DNA of 64,000 nucleotides from positions 62,001-126,000 of the forward strand of contig ONBR01000008.1 of assembly GCA_900316105.1 (NCBI GenBank). The letters run 5' to 3'. Shown here in pieces: positions 34,489-39,642 of this stretch (position 1 is the stretch's first letter; each line of letters starts with the position of its first letter). Under the pieces are notes generated by a model. That model was not told the DNA's origin and made no database searches. It was given only the letters and a program-made list of their open reading frames with translations. The stretch is from an uncultured Olsenella sp. Its GTDB lineage: Bacteria > Actinomycetota > Coriobacteriia > Coriobacteriales > Atopobiaceae. Position numbers and translations under genes: made by a program.

Positions 34489-34784
34489 AGGTGCCTACCT
34501 TCCTCGCGTTTCGGTACTGGAGGGAAAGATAGGACCCTGGGCCGACCAAGCCAGGCGCAGGTGAGCGATGTTCACCGATGCGTCGACTGCCTGAAACCGG
34601 GCGGAATCAAAGAAGGACGAGGACCTGTAACAGGGGGCGCCCTTCTTCCCCCAGCAATAAAGGGTCACTTCCCCTCCCGCGGCAACAGCCGTTCAAGAAC
34701 CCTTATACGTAGCTTACAAAGGCGGCATTTCTCACTCGCATACTTTACCTAACTATAAGTTCTCTCCGTCGAAGGGGCTCTGCC
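34489..34784. other. Divergent promoter region
   Basis: This 296-bp gap separates the aminotransferase gene from the VWA operon. A TATAAG at 34754-34759 could be a -10 box for the operon, but I see no good -35 partner. No gene or repeat was recognised. Confidence 0.4.
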
Positions 34785-36539
34785 ATGGGTCACGTCCACC
34801 TATCCACGGTCGGTCAGCGCACGGGATGCAGGTTCCTCCCTGCCCTGATGGCCCTCATCGTCTGCGCCTGCCTCCTGGTCCTGCCGGCCTGCGGGTCGGA
34901 TGATGCGGGCGGTGGCACGAACGCCGGTGGCACGACCACGGCCTCCCAGGTCACGACCTCCCATGACACCCAGATAGCCACCCAGGGCAAGGTCCAGACC
35001 TTCACACCCAAAGACCCCAACGGGACCACCTTGGTCATAGCCTCGGGCTCCGAGAACAAGGAGGCCCAGGACGCCATAGCCCTGGCCTGCTCCCAGTCCC
35101 ACGTGACCGTCGAGCTTCACTACATGGGCTCCGTCGACATCATGAACCTCCTGGCAGACGGCGCCCAGGACTACGACGCCGTGTGGCCCGCCAGCTCCAT
35201 CTGGATCTCCATGGGCGACAGCCAGCACCTGGTGAAGGACCAGCAGTCCACCTCCACCACCCCCATCGTCCTGGGCGTCTCCCAGCAGAAGGTCAGGGAC
35301 CTTGGATGGACTTCCCAGGACGGCGCCACCATCTCGGTCACCACTGCCGACATCCTCCAGGCCGTCCGCGAGGGCAAGCTCTCCTTTGCCATGACCAGCG
35401 CCACCCAATCAAACTCCGGCGCCTCCGCCTACCTAGCCTTCCTGACCGCCTTGGCCGGCAAGGACCAGCCCCTGACCTCCCAGGACCTGGACGACCAGGC
35501 TCTCCAGAACGACATGAAGTCCCTCCTGGCGGGCCAGGACCGGTCCTCGGGCTCCTCGGACTGGCTCAAGGACCTCATGGTCCAGTCCCCTGGCAAGCAT
35601 GACGCCATGATCAACTACGAGTCCCTGGTCATCGCTGCCAACAAGGAGCTGACGGCCGCCGGCCAGGACCCCCTGGTCGCCGTCTACCCCGCTGACGGCA
35701 TAGCCGTCTCCGACTCTCCCCTGGGCTACCTGGACCACGGCCAGGACAGGGAGGAGGCCTTCAAGGGCTTCCAGGACGCCCTTGCCTCCGATGACGCCAA
35801 GCTGGAGCTGGAGCGAGCGGGCAGGCGGTGCGGCCTGGGCGGCAAGCTGACCCACGCCGACGACAGCCAGGTCCAGGAGGCCTTTAGGGCCGACTGGGGT
35901 ATCACTCAGGACGCCTCGGTCCTGCGCACGGCCCCCCTTCCCTCCGCGGACGTGATGCGCCAGGCCCTCACCCTCTACCAGACGGCCCTGCGCAAGCCCG
36001 CCTACACCATCTGGGTGGTCGACTACTCGGGCAGCATGGTCGGAGCCGGCAAGGACGGTGTGGTCCAGGGTCTCAGCCTGGCGCTAGACCCCACTCAGGC
36101 CTCCTCCTACCTGATCCAGCCCGCCGAGGGCGACGTGAACGTCCTCATCCCCTTCAACAACAAAGTGATCGACGACGTCCGCGCGGACGGCACGGACACC
36201 CAGAACCTGCTGACGCGCGCCCAGACCACCGAGGCCCATGGCGGTACCAACATGTATGCGGGCCTGCTTAAGGCCCTGGACGACCTTCCCCAGGACGTCG
36301 GCTCCTACAACGTGGCCATCGTGCTCATGTCGGACGGCCAGTCCCTGACCACGGACGCCAAAAACTTCCAGGAGGCCTACCAGAGCCTGGGCCTGGACGT
36401 GCCAATCTTTCCCATCATGTTCGCCGATGCGGATGACTCCCAGCTCAAGCCCCTGGCGGAGATGTCGGGCGGCAAGCTCTTTGACGGACGGTCGGAAGAC
36501 CTCGCGGCCACCTTCCGCGAAGTGAAGGGATACAACTGA
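34785..36539 (+). CDS. Lipoprotein with binding-protein domain and VWA domain
   Basis: The 584-residue protein has a signal peptide ending in the lipobox LVLPAC (Cys at about residue 36), then a Gly/Thr linker. Residues about 75-380 form a type-2 periplasmic-binding-protein domain (TTLVIASGSENKEAQDAIAL, DYDAVWPASSIW, AMTSATQSNSGASAYL). Residues about 405-580 form a von Willebrand A domain with an intact MIDAS motif, VVDYSGSM, plus GGTNMYAG and VLMSDGQSL. It would sit outside the cell on a lipid anchor. It starts a four-gene operon and its stop overlaps the next start. Ligand and partner are unknown; no permease is present. Confidence 0.88.
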   Translation: MGHVHLSTVGQRTGCRFLPALMALIVCACLLVLPACGSDDAGGGTNAGGTTTASQVTTSHDTQIATQGKVQTFTPKDPNGTTLVIASGSENKEAQDAIALACSQSHVTVELHYMGSVDIMNLLADGAQDYDAVWPASSIWISMGDSQHLVKDQQSTSTTPIVLGVSQQKVRDLGWTSQDGATISVTTADILQAVREGKLSFAMTSATQSNSGASAYLAFLTALAGKDQPLTSQDLDDQALQNDMKSLLAGQDRSSGSSDWLKDLMVQSPGKHDAMINYESLVIAANKELTAAGQDPLVAVYPADGIAVSDSPLGYLDHGQDREEAFKGFQDALASDDAKLELERAGRRCGLGGKLTHADDSQVQEAFRADWGITQDASVLRTAPLPSADVMRQALTLYQTALRKPAYTIWVVDYSGSMVGAGKDGVVQGLSLALDPTQASSYLIQPAEGDVNVLIPFNNKVIDDVRADGTDTQNLLTRAQTTEAHGGTNMYAGLLKALDDLPQDVGSYNVAIVLMSDGQSLTTDAKNFQEAYQSLGLDVPIFPIMFADADDSQLKPLAEMSGGKLFDGRSEDLAATFREVKGYN

Positions 36540-37207
36540 TGGCAGTTGCCTTGGGCATAGTGGCAGGACTTCTCCTGGGCGGCGTCAGTATCGCCCTCCT
36601 GCCAGGCATGGTCGGCGTGGTGGTGGGCATGGCAGCGGCAGCCCTGGCCTACGTGGGGGTCTCCTACCTGGCCACCCCCGAGCGCAGGCTGGGGGGCCAG
36701 GCCGCGTCCCTCCTGCCCAACGGCGAGTCCATATCGGCCACCCTGGAGCGCGGCGAGACCCTCGCGTCGCGTCTGTCCAAGACGGCTGGCTCCCTGCGCG
36801 ACGGGGACGTCCGCTATGCAGTCGGACGGCTTGCCGACGCCCTCAAGAAACTGACCCACTATGTGGAGGACAATCCCGCCGCCCACAAGCAGCTGGCCCA
36901 CTTCCTCAACGTCTACGCCGACCAGTGCGCCTCCGTCCTGGACAGCTGGCGGGCCCTGGAGGGGTCCCAGGACCAGGGAAACCTGGCCGAGGCCAAGGAT
37001 GACGTCCTTTTGGCCCTCAAGGGTCTGACGGACGCCGTGAACGGCGAGCTGGGCCAGGCAACCGACGCCCACGTAGCCCAGATCGAGGCCAGCCAGGAGG
37101 CCATCAAGCGGCTCGTGGCCATGGACGGCTACGGGGTGGGCAGCCCATCCGAGCCTACCACTCCGGACGGGGCAGACCAGATCGACGAAGGAGGCGTCTC
37201 CTCATGA
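36539..37207 (+). CDS. XpaC-like membrane protein
   Basis: The 222-residue protein has two hydrophobic helices in residues 3-45, then a helical soluble region with KTAGSLRDGDVRYAVGRLAD and LAHFLNVYADQCASVLDSWR, which resembles XpaC (5-bromo-4-chloroindolyl phosphate hydrolysis) proteins. The biochemical role of XpaC is not established; in Bacillus it is encoded next to the TelA homologue YaaN, and here a TelA gene follows two genes later. Start and stop overlap both neighbours (TGATG and ATGA). The C-terminus is acidic and flexible. Confidence 0.75.
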   Translation: MAVALGIVAGLLLGGVSIALLPGMVGVVVGMAAAALAYVGVSYLATPERRLGGQAASLLPNGESISATLERGETLASRLSKTAGSLRDGDVRYAVGRLADALKKLTHYVEDNPAAHKQLAHFLNVYADQCASVLDSWRALEGSQDQGNLAEAKDDVLLALKGLTDAVNGELGQATDAHVAQIEASQEAIKRLVAMDGYGVGSPSEPTTPDGADQIDEGGVSS

Positions 37208-38307
37208 GCATGAGTAGAAACAAGCTGATCGGCCTGGTGGCAGTGGTCCTGGCTGTGGGAATCATCGGGGGTGTCTATGCCTGGAGGCAGGCCCAACCCG
37301 CGCCCGTGGAGCCCGAGCCGCCGGCCGTCCCCTCCGTCGTCAAGGGCTACCTGGGCGGCGAAAAGATCAGTCTCTTCGAGGACCAGGCCTTCCAGGACCT
37401 TGCCAGCCAGTCGGGCCTGGACATCCAGTACAAGAAGGCCGGCTCCCTGGCCATGATGGACGCGGACCTGACGGGCATGGACTACCTCTTTCCCTCATCG
37501 CGAGCGGCGGTGGACTACGGTGCCTCCAAGGGAGTGACCTCCGGCGACAAGGACATCGTCTTCAACTCCCCCATCGTCATCTACACCTACCGGGACGTTG
37601 CGGACTCCCTGGTTGCCTCGGGGCTCATGTCCAAGGACGGCGAGGTCTACAGCCTGGACGTGTCCCAGGCCGTGACGGCCATGGCCCAGGACAAGACCTG
37701 GGCCGACGTGGGCTGGGCGCGGGGCTATGGGCAGTTCCGGATTGACTCCACGGACCCCACCCAGTCCAACAGCGGCAACGAGTGGGCGGCCCTGGTGGCA
37801 ACGGTCCTCAACGGGGGACAACCCGCTACCGTGGACAGCATCAACCGCGACAAGGATGCCATCCTGGACATCTTCTCGAAGTCGGGCTGGATGGAAACCT
37901 CCTCCGAAGACTCCTTCGAGCAGTTCCTGACCCTGGGCGAGGGGTCCAAGCCCATGATGGTAGGTTACGAGTCCCAGATCCTGGACCTGGCGGTAAACAA
38001 GCCCGACCTCTACGCCCAGGCCAAGGACGACGTGGTGATCGTCTATCCCACACCGACGGTCTGGTCCACGCACGTGGTCATGCCCTTGGACGAGGCAGGC
38101 GTCAGGCTCCGCGACTTCCTCAAGTCCGAGGATGTCCAGAAGCTTGCCTGGGAGCGCCACGGGTTCCGGACGGCCTCCTACGCGGCGGCCAGCTCGACCG
38201 ACCAGTTTGGCGTGCCTGGCGTGACCGGGCAGGTGGGGGCAGCCGTGGAGCTTCCCTCAACCGACGCCATGTCCAGACTCATCGAGCTTCTTGCCAACAA
38301 GCAATAG
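37204..38307 (+). CDS. Membrane-anchored binding-protein-like protein
   Basis: This 367-residue protein has an N-terminal membrane helix (LIGLVAVVLAVGIIGGVYAW) without a lipobox, a Pro-rich linker (PAPVEPEPPAVPS) and a type-2 binding-protein fold. VVKGYLGGEKISLFEDQAFQ, FPSSRAAVDYG, IDSTDPTQSNSGNEWAALVA and VWSTHVVMPLDEAGVRLRDF parallel the binding domain of the first operon gene, so the two may be paralogous. It would face outward. It overlaps the XpaC-like gene by four bases. No ligand can be proposed, and no transporter subunits accompany it. Confidence 0.82.
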   Translation: MSMSRNKLIGLVAVVLAVGIIGGVYAWRQAQPAPVEPEPPAVPSVVKGYLGGEKISLFEDQAFQDLASQSGLDIQYKKAGSLAMMDADLTGMDYLFPSSRAAVDYGASKGVTSGDKDIVFNSPIVIYTYRDVADSLVASGLMSKDGEVYSLDVSQAVTAMAQDKTWADVGWARGYGQFRIDSTDPTQSNSGNEWAALVATVLNGGQPATVDSINRDKDAILDIFSKSGWMETSSEDSFEQFLTLGEGSKPMMVGYESQILDLAVNKPDLYAQAKDDVVIVYPTPTVWSTHVVMPLDEAGVRLRDFLKSEDVQKLAWERHGFRTASYAAASSTDQFGVPGVTGQVGAAVELPSTDAMSRLIELLANKQ

Positions 38308-38374
38308 CCATAGGGCCCCGGGGGCGGGCGCGGTCCCCGGAACAGTCAGACACGCGCGAACACGAGGAGGAAGC

Positions 38375-39529
38375 ATGGCAGACACGAAGGAAGAGTCCAA
38401 GGCACCCACCGTCTCCCTGGAGTCCCTGATGGGATCGGCGTCGAGGCCCGCAACGACCGAGCTGGTTCCCGCCAAGCAGGTGGAGTCCCAGGTGACCAAG
38501 GCCATCTCGGGCCTGAGCCCCGAGGATCAGCAGAAGGCCGATCAGATCGCCCGGACCATCGACTTCGGCCAGGCGGCCATCGAGCAGACCTACGCCGCCG
38601 ACGCCCAGCGGAGCATGGCCGACTTCTCGGACACGGTCCTGGCCAAGGTCCAGAGCAAGGACACGGGCGACGCGGGCAAGCTCCTGCGGGAGCTCGTGGT
38701 GACCGTGGACGAGTCCGACCTCTCGGGCATAAAGAAGGTCCCCATCCTGGGCACCGTGGTGGTCAAGATCGACCAGCTCCGCAGGGAGTATCAGAAGGTC
38801 ACGCCCCAGATTGATGACATCGTGGGCAAGCTGGAGCGCAACCAGGCCCAGATGGTCTCGGACATCGCCCTCTATGACAAGCTCTACGACCGCAGCGTCG
38901 CCCAGTACCGGCAGCTCAAGATCTACGTCGCGGCCGGCCACCAGGCCCTGGACACCTTCCGGGCCGACCAGCTGCCCCGCCTGGAGCAAGAGGCCCAGGA
39001 GTCGGGCGACCCCATGGCCAGCCAGGTCCTCAAGGACTTCAAGGCCAAGCTCGAGCGCTTCGACAAGCACCTGGACGACCTCGACCGAGTGAGCGTGGTA
39101 GCCCTCCAGTCCTGCCCCCAGATCAAGATCCTCCAGGCCGCCGACCAGGTCATCGTGGACAAGATCAACACCACCGTCACCATGACCATCCCCCTGTGGA
39201 AGAGCCAGATGGTCATCGCCCTGGGCCTGGAGAACCAGCGTCAGGCACTGGAGCTCCAGAAGAACGTGGACGATGTGACCAACAAGCTCCTGAAGCAGAA
39301 CGCCCAGGCCCTCCACCAGGGGGCCGTGGACACAGCCAAGGCCAACCAGCGGGGCGCCGTGGACGTGGAGACCCTCCAGGAAGTCAACGACCAGCTGATC
39401 TCCACCATCAAGGACACCATCCAGATCCAGGAGGAGGGCCGTGCCCAACGGGCCGATGCCCAGGTCAAGATGAGGCAGATGGAGGCCGACCTGAAGGCCG
39501 CCCTCATGGAGCAGGCCCAGAGCCTCTAA
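38375..39529 (+). CDS. TelA-like (toxic anion resistance family) protein
   Basis: The 384-residue protein is almost entirely helical, soluble and charged, as are TelA/YaaN/KlaA proteins. Matching segments are PILGTVVVKIDQLRREYQKV, LYDKLYDRSVAQYRQLKIYV, TVTMTIPLWKSQMVIALGLE and LLKQNAQALHQGAVDTAKAN. Family members are linked to tellurite resistance and envelope stress and are often found with XpaC; the mechanism is unknown. GAGGAGG precedes the ATG, 67 bases after the preceding stop. It closes the four-gene operon, and a terminator follows. Confidence 0.88.
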   Translation: MADTKEESKAPTVSLESLMGSASRPATTELVPAKQVESQVTKAISGLSPEDQQKADQIARTIDFGQAAIEQTYAADAQRSMADFSDTVLAKVQSKDTGDAGKLLRELVVTVDESDLSGIKKVPILGTVVVKIDQLRREYQKVTPQIDDIVGKLERNQAQMVSDIALYDKLYDRSVAQYRQLKIYVAAGHQALDTFRADQLPRLEQEAQESGDPMASQVLKDFKAKLERFDKHLDDLDRVSVVALQSCPQIKILQAADQVIVDKINTTVTMTIPLWKSQMVIALGLENQRQALELQKNVDDVTNKLLKQNAQALHQGAVDTAKANQRGAVDVETLQEVNDQLISTIKDTIQIQEEGRAQRADAQVKMRQMEADLKAALMEQAQSL

Positions 39530-39605: not shown

Positions 39606-39642
39606 AGGGCGGCAGGGAGCGCGACCTCCCCGCCGCCCTTTG
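39606..39642 (+). terminator. Hairpin terminator after the TelA operon
   Basis: AGGGCGGCAGGGA (39606-39618) and TCCCCGCCGCCCT (39627-39639) pair with one A-C mismatch over GCGCGACC and are followed by TTG. Confidence 0.65.

Follow-up and report, generated by a model that had tools for sequence, protein, structure and literature searches.

The window, a 64,000-nucleotide stretch of an uncultured Olsenella sp. contig (ONBR01000008.1), contains four genes of one strand between an upstream sequence element and a downstream hairpin. The features were as follows:

34702 to 34719, + strand: upstream element CTTATACGTAGCTTACAA, about 65 bases 5' of gene A (alignment of upstream regions)
34785 to 36539, + strand: gene A, lipoprotein of 584 aa with an SBP_bac_11 binding domain and a C-terminal VWA domain with intact MIDAS (Pfam, lipobox, hydropathy, alignment)
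36539 to 37207, + strand: gene B, XpaC family (PF10112), 222 aa (Pfam, hydropathy of residues 1–46)
37204 to 38307, + strand: gene C, predicted N-terminally anchored extracellular binding protein, 367 aa (hhalign against A, hydropathy)
38375 to 39529, + strand: gene D, TelA (PF05816), predicted soluble helical protein, 384 aa (Pfam, hydropathy)
39606 to 39639, + strand: hairpin 3' of TelA (RNA fold)

The gene positions and couplings given by the first-pass annotation were correct. A and B overlapped by 1 base and B and C by 4 bases; the stop codon of C was separated by a 67-base gap from the TelA ATG at 38375, and the TelA stop codon ended at 39529. Together with the recurrence of this gene order in other genomes, described below, these couplings bore out the proposal of a single coupled operon. 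The upstream element CTTATACGTAGCTTACAA consisted of two CTTA-type elements with a spacing of 11 bases. Alignment of upstream regions revealed a similar sequence 5' of A in locus L029 and a weaker likeness in L022, and the element had its sole exact copy in the genome at this position; it is a possible promoter or operator. A terminator had been proposed after TelA. The hairpin at 39606–39639 was strong (-27.7 kcal/mol, z -4.37, with 0 of 200 shuffles equally stable) and is likely to mark the end of transcription, while its T-run was weak and a scan for consensus terminators did not call it. An Rfam search gave no match. No permease or ATPase was found among the ORFs and Pfam matches of the four-gene block, as the first-pass annotation had stated, and the PADLOC anti-phage defence models gave no match for A, B, C, or D.

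Pfam analysis of protein A showed an SBP_bac_11 match (2.5e-18) and a VWA match at the level of the cut-off (24.0 bits, cut-off 23.8). The lipobox was LPAC with a nearly invariant Cys36, and hydropathy showed an N-terminal hydrophobic segment as the single predicted anchor. All residues of the VWA metal site (DxSxS, T, and D) were present in A: the MIDAS residues D413-x-S415-x-S417, T488, and D517 were intact and did not vary in any of the 68 A proteins compared. In the binding domain, G212 and G305 were kept in all 68 A proteins, E90 and S209 in 67 each, and the position of E279 was occupied by Glu in 42 proteins and by Gln in 22. Ligand contacts of type-2 binding proteins are usually found at strand-to-helix loops. 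In the AlphaFold model of A, which was of moderate quality (pLDDT 62), E90, S209, and E279 sat at such loops, and they may line the ligand cleft of A. A sequence search of the PDB with A returned VWA relatives only.

Protein C had no match in Pfam and no relative in a PDB sequence search. Profile alignment by hhalign revealed that it matched the binding domain of A with a probability of 98% (E 1.9e-13), which identifies C as a paralogue of that domain. S188, Y255, and E256 of C were invariant in 41 C proteins. The AlphaFold model of C, built from four sequences, was poor (pLDDT 48). The hydrophobic anchor of C covered residues 3–29, and the hydropathy of both proteins suggests that A and C are located outside the cell, each on a single N-terminal anchor. 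The Pfam matches of A, the paralogy of C, and the conserved MIDAS agree with the earlier description of two extracellular binding proteins, one of them fused to a VWA domain.

The other two genes were the XpaC-like and TelA-like partners that had been named. B matched PF10112 with 31.5 bits, above the curated cut-off of 29.8, and belongs to the XpaC family; it had a two-segment hydrophobic hairpin within residues 1–46, followed by a helical domain that is predicted to be cytosolic. D matched the TelA model with 309.6 bits (cut-off 30) over positions 2–331 of 332 and is a full-length TelA; no hydrophobic segment was detected in its hydropathy profile. A single TelA and a single XpaC were found in the genome. 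The PDB sequence search with TelA gave only a weak match to an artificial coiled coil.

The binding proteins of ABC importers of the ModA/SBP_bac_11 type share the type-2 binding fold with this operon, as shown by Pfam and by Foldseek matches to FbpA/AfuA-type proteins, but the operon differs from them by the VWA fusion, the diverged paralogue pair, and the lack of a linked permease and ATPase. A and C could still be the binding proteins of an importer that has its permease and ATPase at another locus, with a secondary linkage to XpaC and TelA. The transporter-type domain of A and the genomes that carry C-A without TelA are consistent with this explanation. However, the genome's own ModA adjoined ModB at a place away from the operon, so that the molybdate permease has its own ModA, and neither the A profile nor the C profile matched that protein; clustering of the binding domains with a transporter, which the first-pass annotation had regarded as fatal to its proposal, was therefore not seen for the molybdate system. 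In addition, A is tied to a VWA domain whose MIDAS is invariant, an arrangement atypical for import, and its linkage with TelA was recurrent. We consider an importer quite improbable.

The adjacent PF10112 and PF05816 genes resembled the classical XpaC-TelA pairs (xpaC-yaaN in B. subtilis, lmo1966-lmo1967 in Listeria, and llmg_1115-telA1 in Lactococcus). The membership of the classical pair in envelope-stress regulons was counted as a further likeness: the XpaC-TelA genes belong to the sigma-W core regulon of B. subtilis (PMC3498285), and they were up in the response of L. lactis to membrane-protein overproduction that was studied with CesSR (PMC3139573). In contrast to the classical two-gene operon, the present one had four genes and its TelA fell outside the classical group, and no SBP-VWA gene (the A type) or second binding protein was found in the eight classical loci inspected (about 12 kb). 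The Ter systems (TerB, TerC, TerD, TerF vWA, and TelA) are similar in combining TelA with a VWA protein, in being membrane-associated, and in conferring stress resistance. They differ in that the vWA protein TerF is described as lying beneath the membrane with TelA, while the VWA domain described here is carried by a secreted lipoprotein and is fused to a binding domain. A search of the genome (about 92% complete) for TerD (PF02342) gave no match. In the literature within reach, from which the majority of subscription papers were absent, the 2012 analysis of Ter systems among them, no link between TelA and an SBP-VWA protein was found. Neither a Bifidobacterium vWA paper nor a survey of PSP partners had any relation to the operon. 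The operon is thus a variant on the TelA/XpaC theme with an apparently new SBP-VWA partnership, and the 2012 analysis may already note the neighbourhood.

Recurrence was investigated in 298 genomes of the class Coriobacteriia. TelA scored above the cut-off in 97 of them, and A was found at E < 1e-40 in 26. On all 25 intact contigs, TelA was encoded next to A, in the same orientation and within about 3 kb; in the 26th genome, the locus was split across two contig ends inside C. The genes that flank the operon in the window were not found around it in relatives; passive synteny therefore does not explain the order, and the adjacency in 25 of 25 contigs with non-conserved flanks showed that the linkage is not due to chance. 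Assigned by TelA score, 52 of the 97 genomes had classical and 45 non-classical TelA. An SBP-VWA neighbour was present for 39 of the 45 non-classical genes, while in the inspected loci of the 52 classical genomes XpaC was present and an SBP-VWA gene was absent. The six non-classical TelA genes without such a neighbour comprised one TM-TelA pair, one gene at a contig edge, and four solitary window-type genes (L023, L025, L034, and L035). These four had no adjacent A, B, or C and were nested in the clade of the operon, which suggests a loss of the sensor genes. In one genome (G108; L022, 7000–10640), an extra XpaC copy lay between C and TelA, giving the order A-B-C-B-D, and in L117 and L123 the SBP-VWA gene was apparently in tandem duplicate before TelA.

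Profile searches of fetched loci revealed several gene arrangements. Coriobacteriia of two families and three genomes of Clostridia had the order A-B-C-D. Other Coriobacteriia had C-A-TM-TelA or TM-A-(TM)-TelA, and two additional families of this class had TelA-TM-A. Thirteen fetched loci from Actinomycetes had C-TelA-A-TM, and three Bacillota with large genomes had TM-A-TelA. A-B-C with no TelA next to it was found in two Eisenbergiella species, whose TelA lay elsewhere in the genome, and in one other. C-A alone occurred in Nocardiopsis and relatives, and TM-A alone in nine Clostridia. The TM proteins that were read began with a hydrophobic stretch and continued as a helical domain. Comparison of three TM variants with XpaC by hhalign gave weak support for two and none for the third, so their likeness to XpaC is one of layout only; no PF10112 match was found in four TM proteins of the other arrangements.

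A was detected in 14 of 291 genomes of the class of Eisenbergiella, in 6 of 249 genomes of its phylum, and in 65 of 297 genomes of the class of Nocardiopsis, where some of the weaker Actinomycete matches were of a different, TelA-free kind. A scan of genome contigs with single-protein queries reached only three distant loci. When TelA was sought in 24 more genomes that carry A, the gene was adjacent to A in 3, elsewhere in 4, present only below the threshold in 1, and without a match in 16, three of which had only the weak kind of A and for which genome completeness is not given. The surface module is thus not bound to TelA, which counts against a strict four-part machine.

Several observations were made beside these arrangements. 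In L111, L112, and L114, an Actinomycete SBP-VWA gene had an IMP dehydrogenase-like gene on one side and, on the other, a TM protein with a conserved 131-aa membrane protein, and the genomes of L111 and L112 had no TelA. In a large-genome Bacillota locus (L146, from 7881 onward), a multi-pass membrane protein was encoded 3' of TelA. A contig from a viral collection, whose viral origin is putative, carried an XpaC-TelA pair of the classical group (L045, 448–2251).

The neighbourhood search proposed at the outset showed that the block is conserved beyond the window, with adjacency as the rule in Coriobacteriia and the A-B-C-D order also in Clostridia. The expectation of the first-pass annotation that the four genes would stay together in relatives held for the adjacency within the class; it did not hold for the four lone TelA genes, for Eisenbergiella, or for the 16 genomes without a TelA match. 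Another explanation is that the SBP-VWA pair and the TelA-XpaC pair are independent modules, which are co-transcribed because both answer envelope damage, with no physical coupling. The 52 classical genomes with XpaC and no SBP-VWA gene in the inspected loci would fit such modules, as would C-A or TM-A alone in Actinomycetes and Clostridia. However, the association was repeated in several gene orders, with gene overlaps, and on both sides of the deepest split of TelA, and we regard a merely parallel action of two modules as improbable.

In a quick phylogenetic tree, TelA formed two deep halves, and linkage with SBP-VWA genes appeared in both. The classical XpaC-TelA rows (21) formed one group inside one half, and the TelA of the window was apart from them. 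The branches between the halves were very long and the root was arbitrary, so the ancestry of the SBP-VWA linkage can be put forward only as a hypothesis. The pairwise distances of A and TelA were correlated (r 0.86 over 40 loci), which may come from shared descent alone and not from contact. It is conceivable, and on balance rather unlikely, that SBP-VWA lipoproteins were the ancestral surface sensors of TelA, that the system built on TelA is a ligand-gated device spanning the membrane, and that the XpaC-TelA pair is a reduced form that has lost the outer sensor.

We favour the reading that the operon encodes one transmembrane assembly for envelope sensing or envelope protection, with A and C outside, B as the link, and TelA beneath the membrane, and give it a probability of about one half. 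Lipoprotein A and the anchored C would present two paralogous type-2 binding clefts outside the cell, and the VWA MIDAS of A would add a metal-dependent protein contact. B, with its predicted membrane hairpin and cytosolic helical domain, would link this surface module to TelA. A ligand or a state of the envelope (a cation, peptide, antimicrobial, or cell-wall fragment) would change A and C, and the change would be passed via B and alter the assembly of TelA at the inner face of the membrane.

Counted in support of this assembly were the overlapping genes, the linkage in 25 of 25 contigs, the A-B-C-D order in three Clostridia, the re-ordered sets, the MIDAS in 68 of 68 proteins, the near-invariant cleft-loop residues in A and C, the distance correlation of 0.86, the non-shared flanks, and the stress regulons. 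Counted against it were A without TelA in 16 genomes, C-A alone, the four lone window-type TelA genes, the homology of the TM proteins with XpaC, which is not firm, and the pLDDT of the C and A models (48 and 62). In PMC12791056, a Listeria telA mutant is reported to be 4-fold more sensitive to nisin, and PMC7824862 relates a proposal that TelA and TerF vWA form sub-membrane structures that exclude phage or xenobiotics. The envelope-stress regulons, the nisin phenotype, and the Ter proposal together favour a surface-triggered envelope-protection device.

The same ties of TelA and XpaC to envelope stress and to nisin or bacteriocin tolerance also fit a structural protection without sensing, in which the VWA and binding domains hold partners in the wall or membrane and an XpaC/TelA scaffold makes the membrane more rigid against pore-forming agents such as nisin. 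The sub-membrane location proposed for TelA in the Ter literature is in keeping with such a scaffold. VWA MIDAS domains are usually mediators of adhesion, which is also in its favour. However, the near-invariant residues at strand-to-helix loops in the two binding domains suggest that a ligand cleft is really there, for which a scaffold has no need; structural protection alone thus appears unlikely, if less so than an importer or independent modules.

Links of TelA and XpaC to tellurite, nisin, and envelope stress have been on record for years without a mechanism or a known input. With a recurrent outer partner whose metal site is intact and which has an apparent cleft for a ligand, the input of TelA becomes a testable question, with specific residues to mutate and a ligand to seek. 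Simple tellurite resistance should not be assumed for the TelA genes of many Actinomycetota and of some Bacillota, and the four-gene set, which is found in several orders in two phyla, may reveal what the TelA family responds to.
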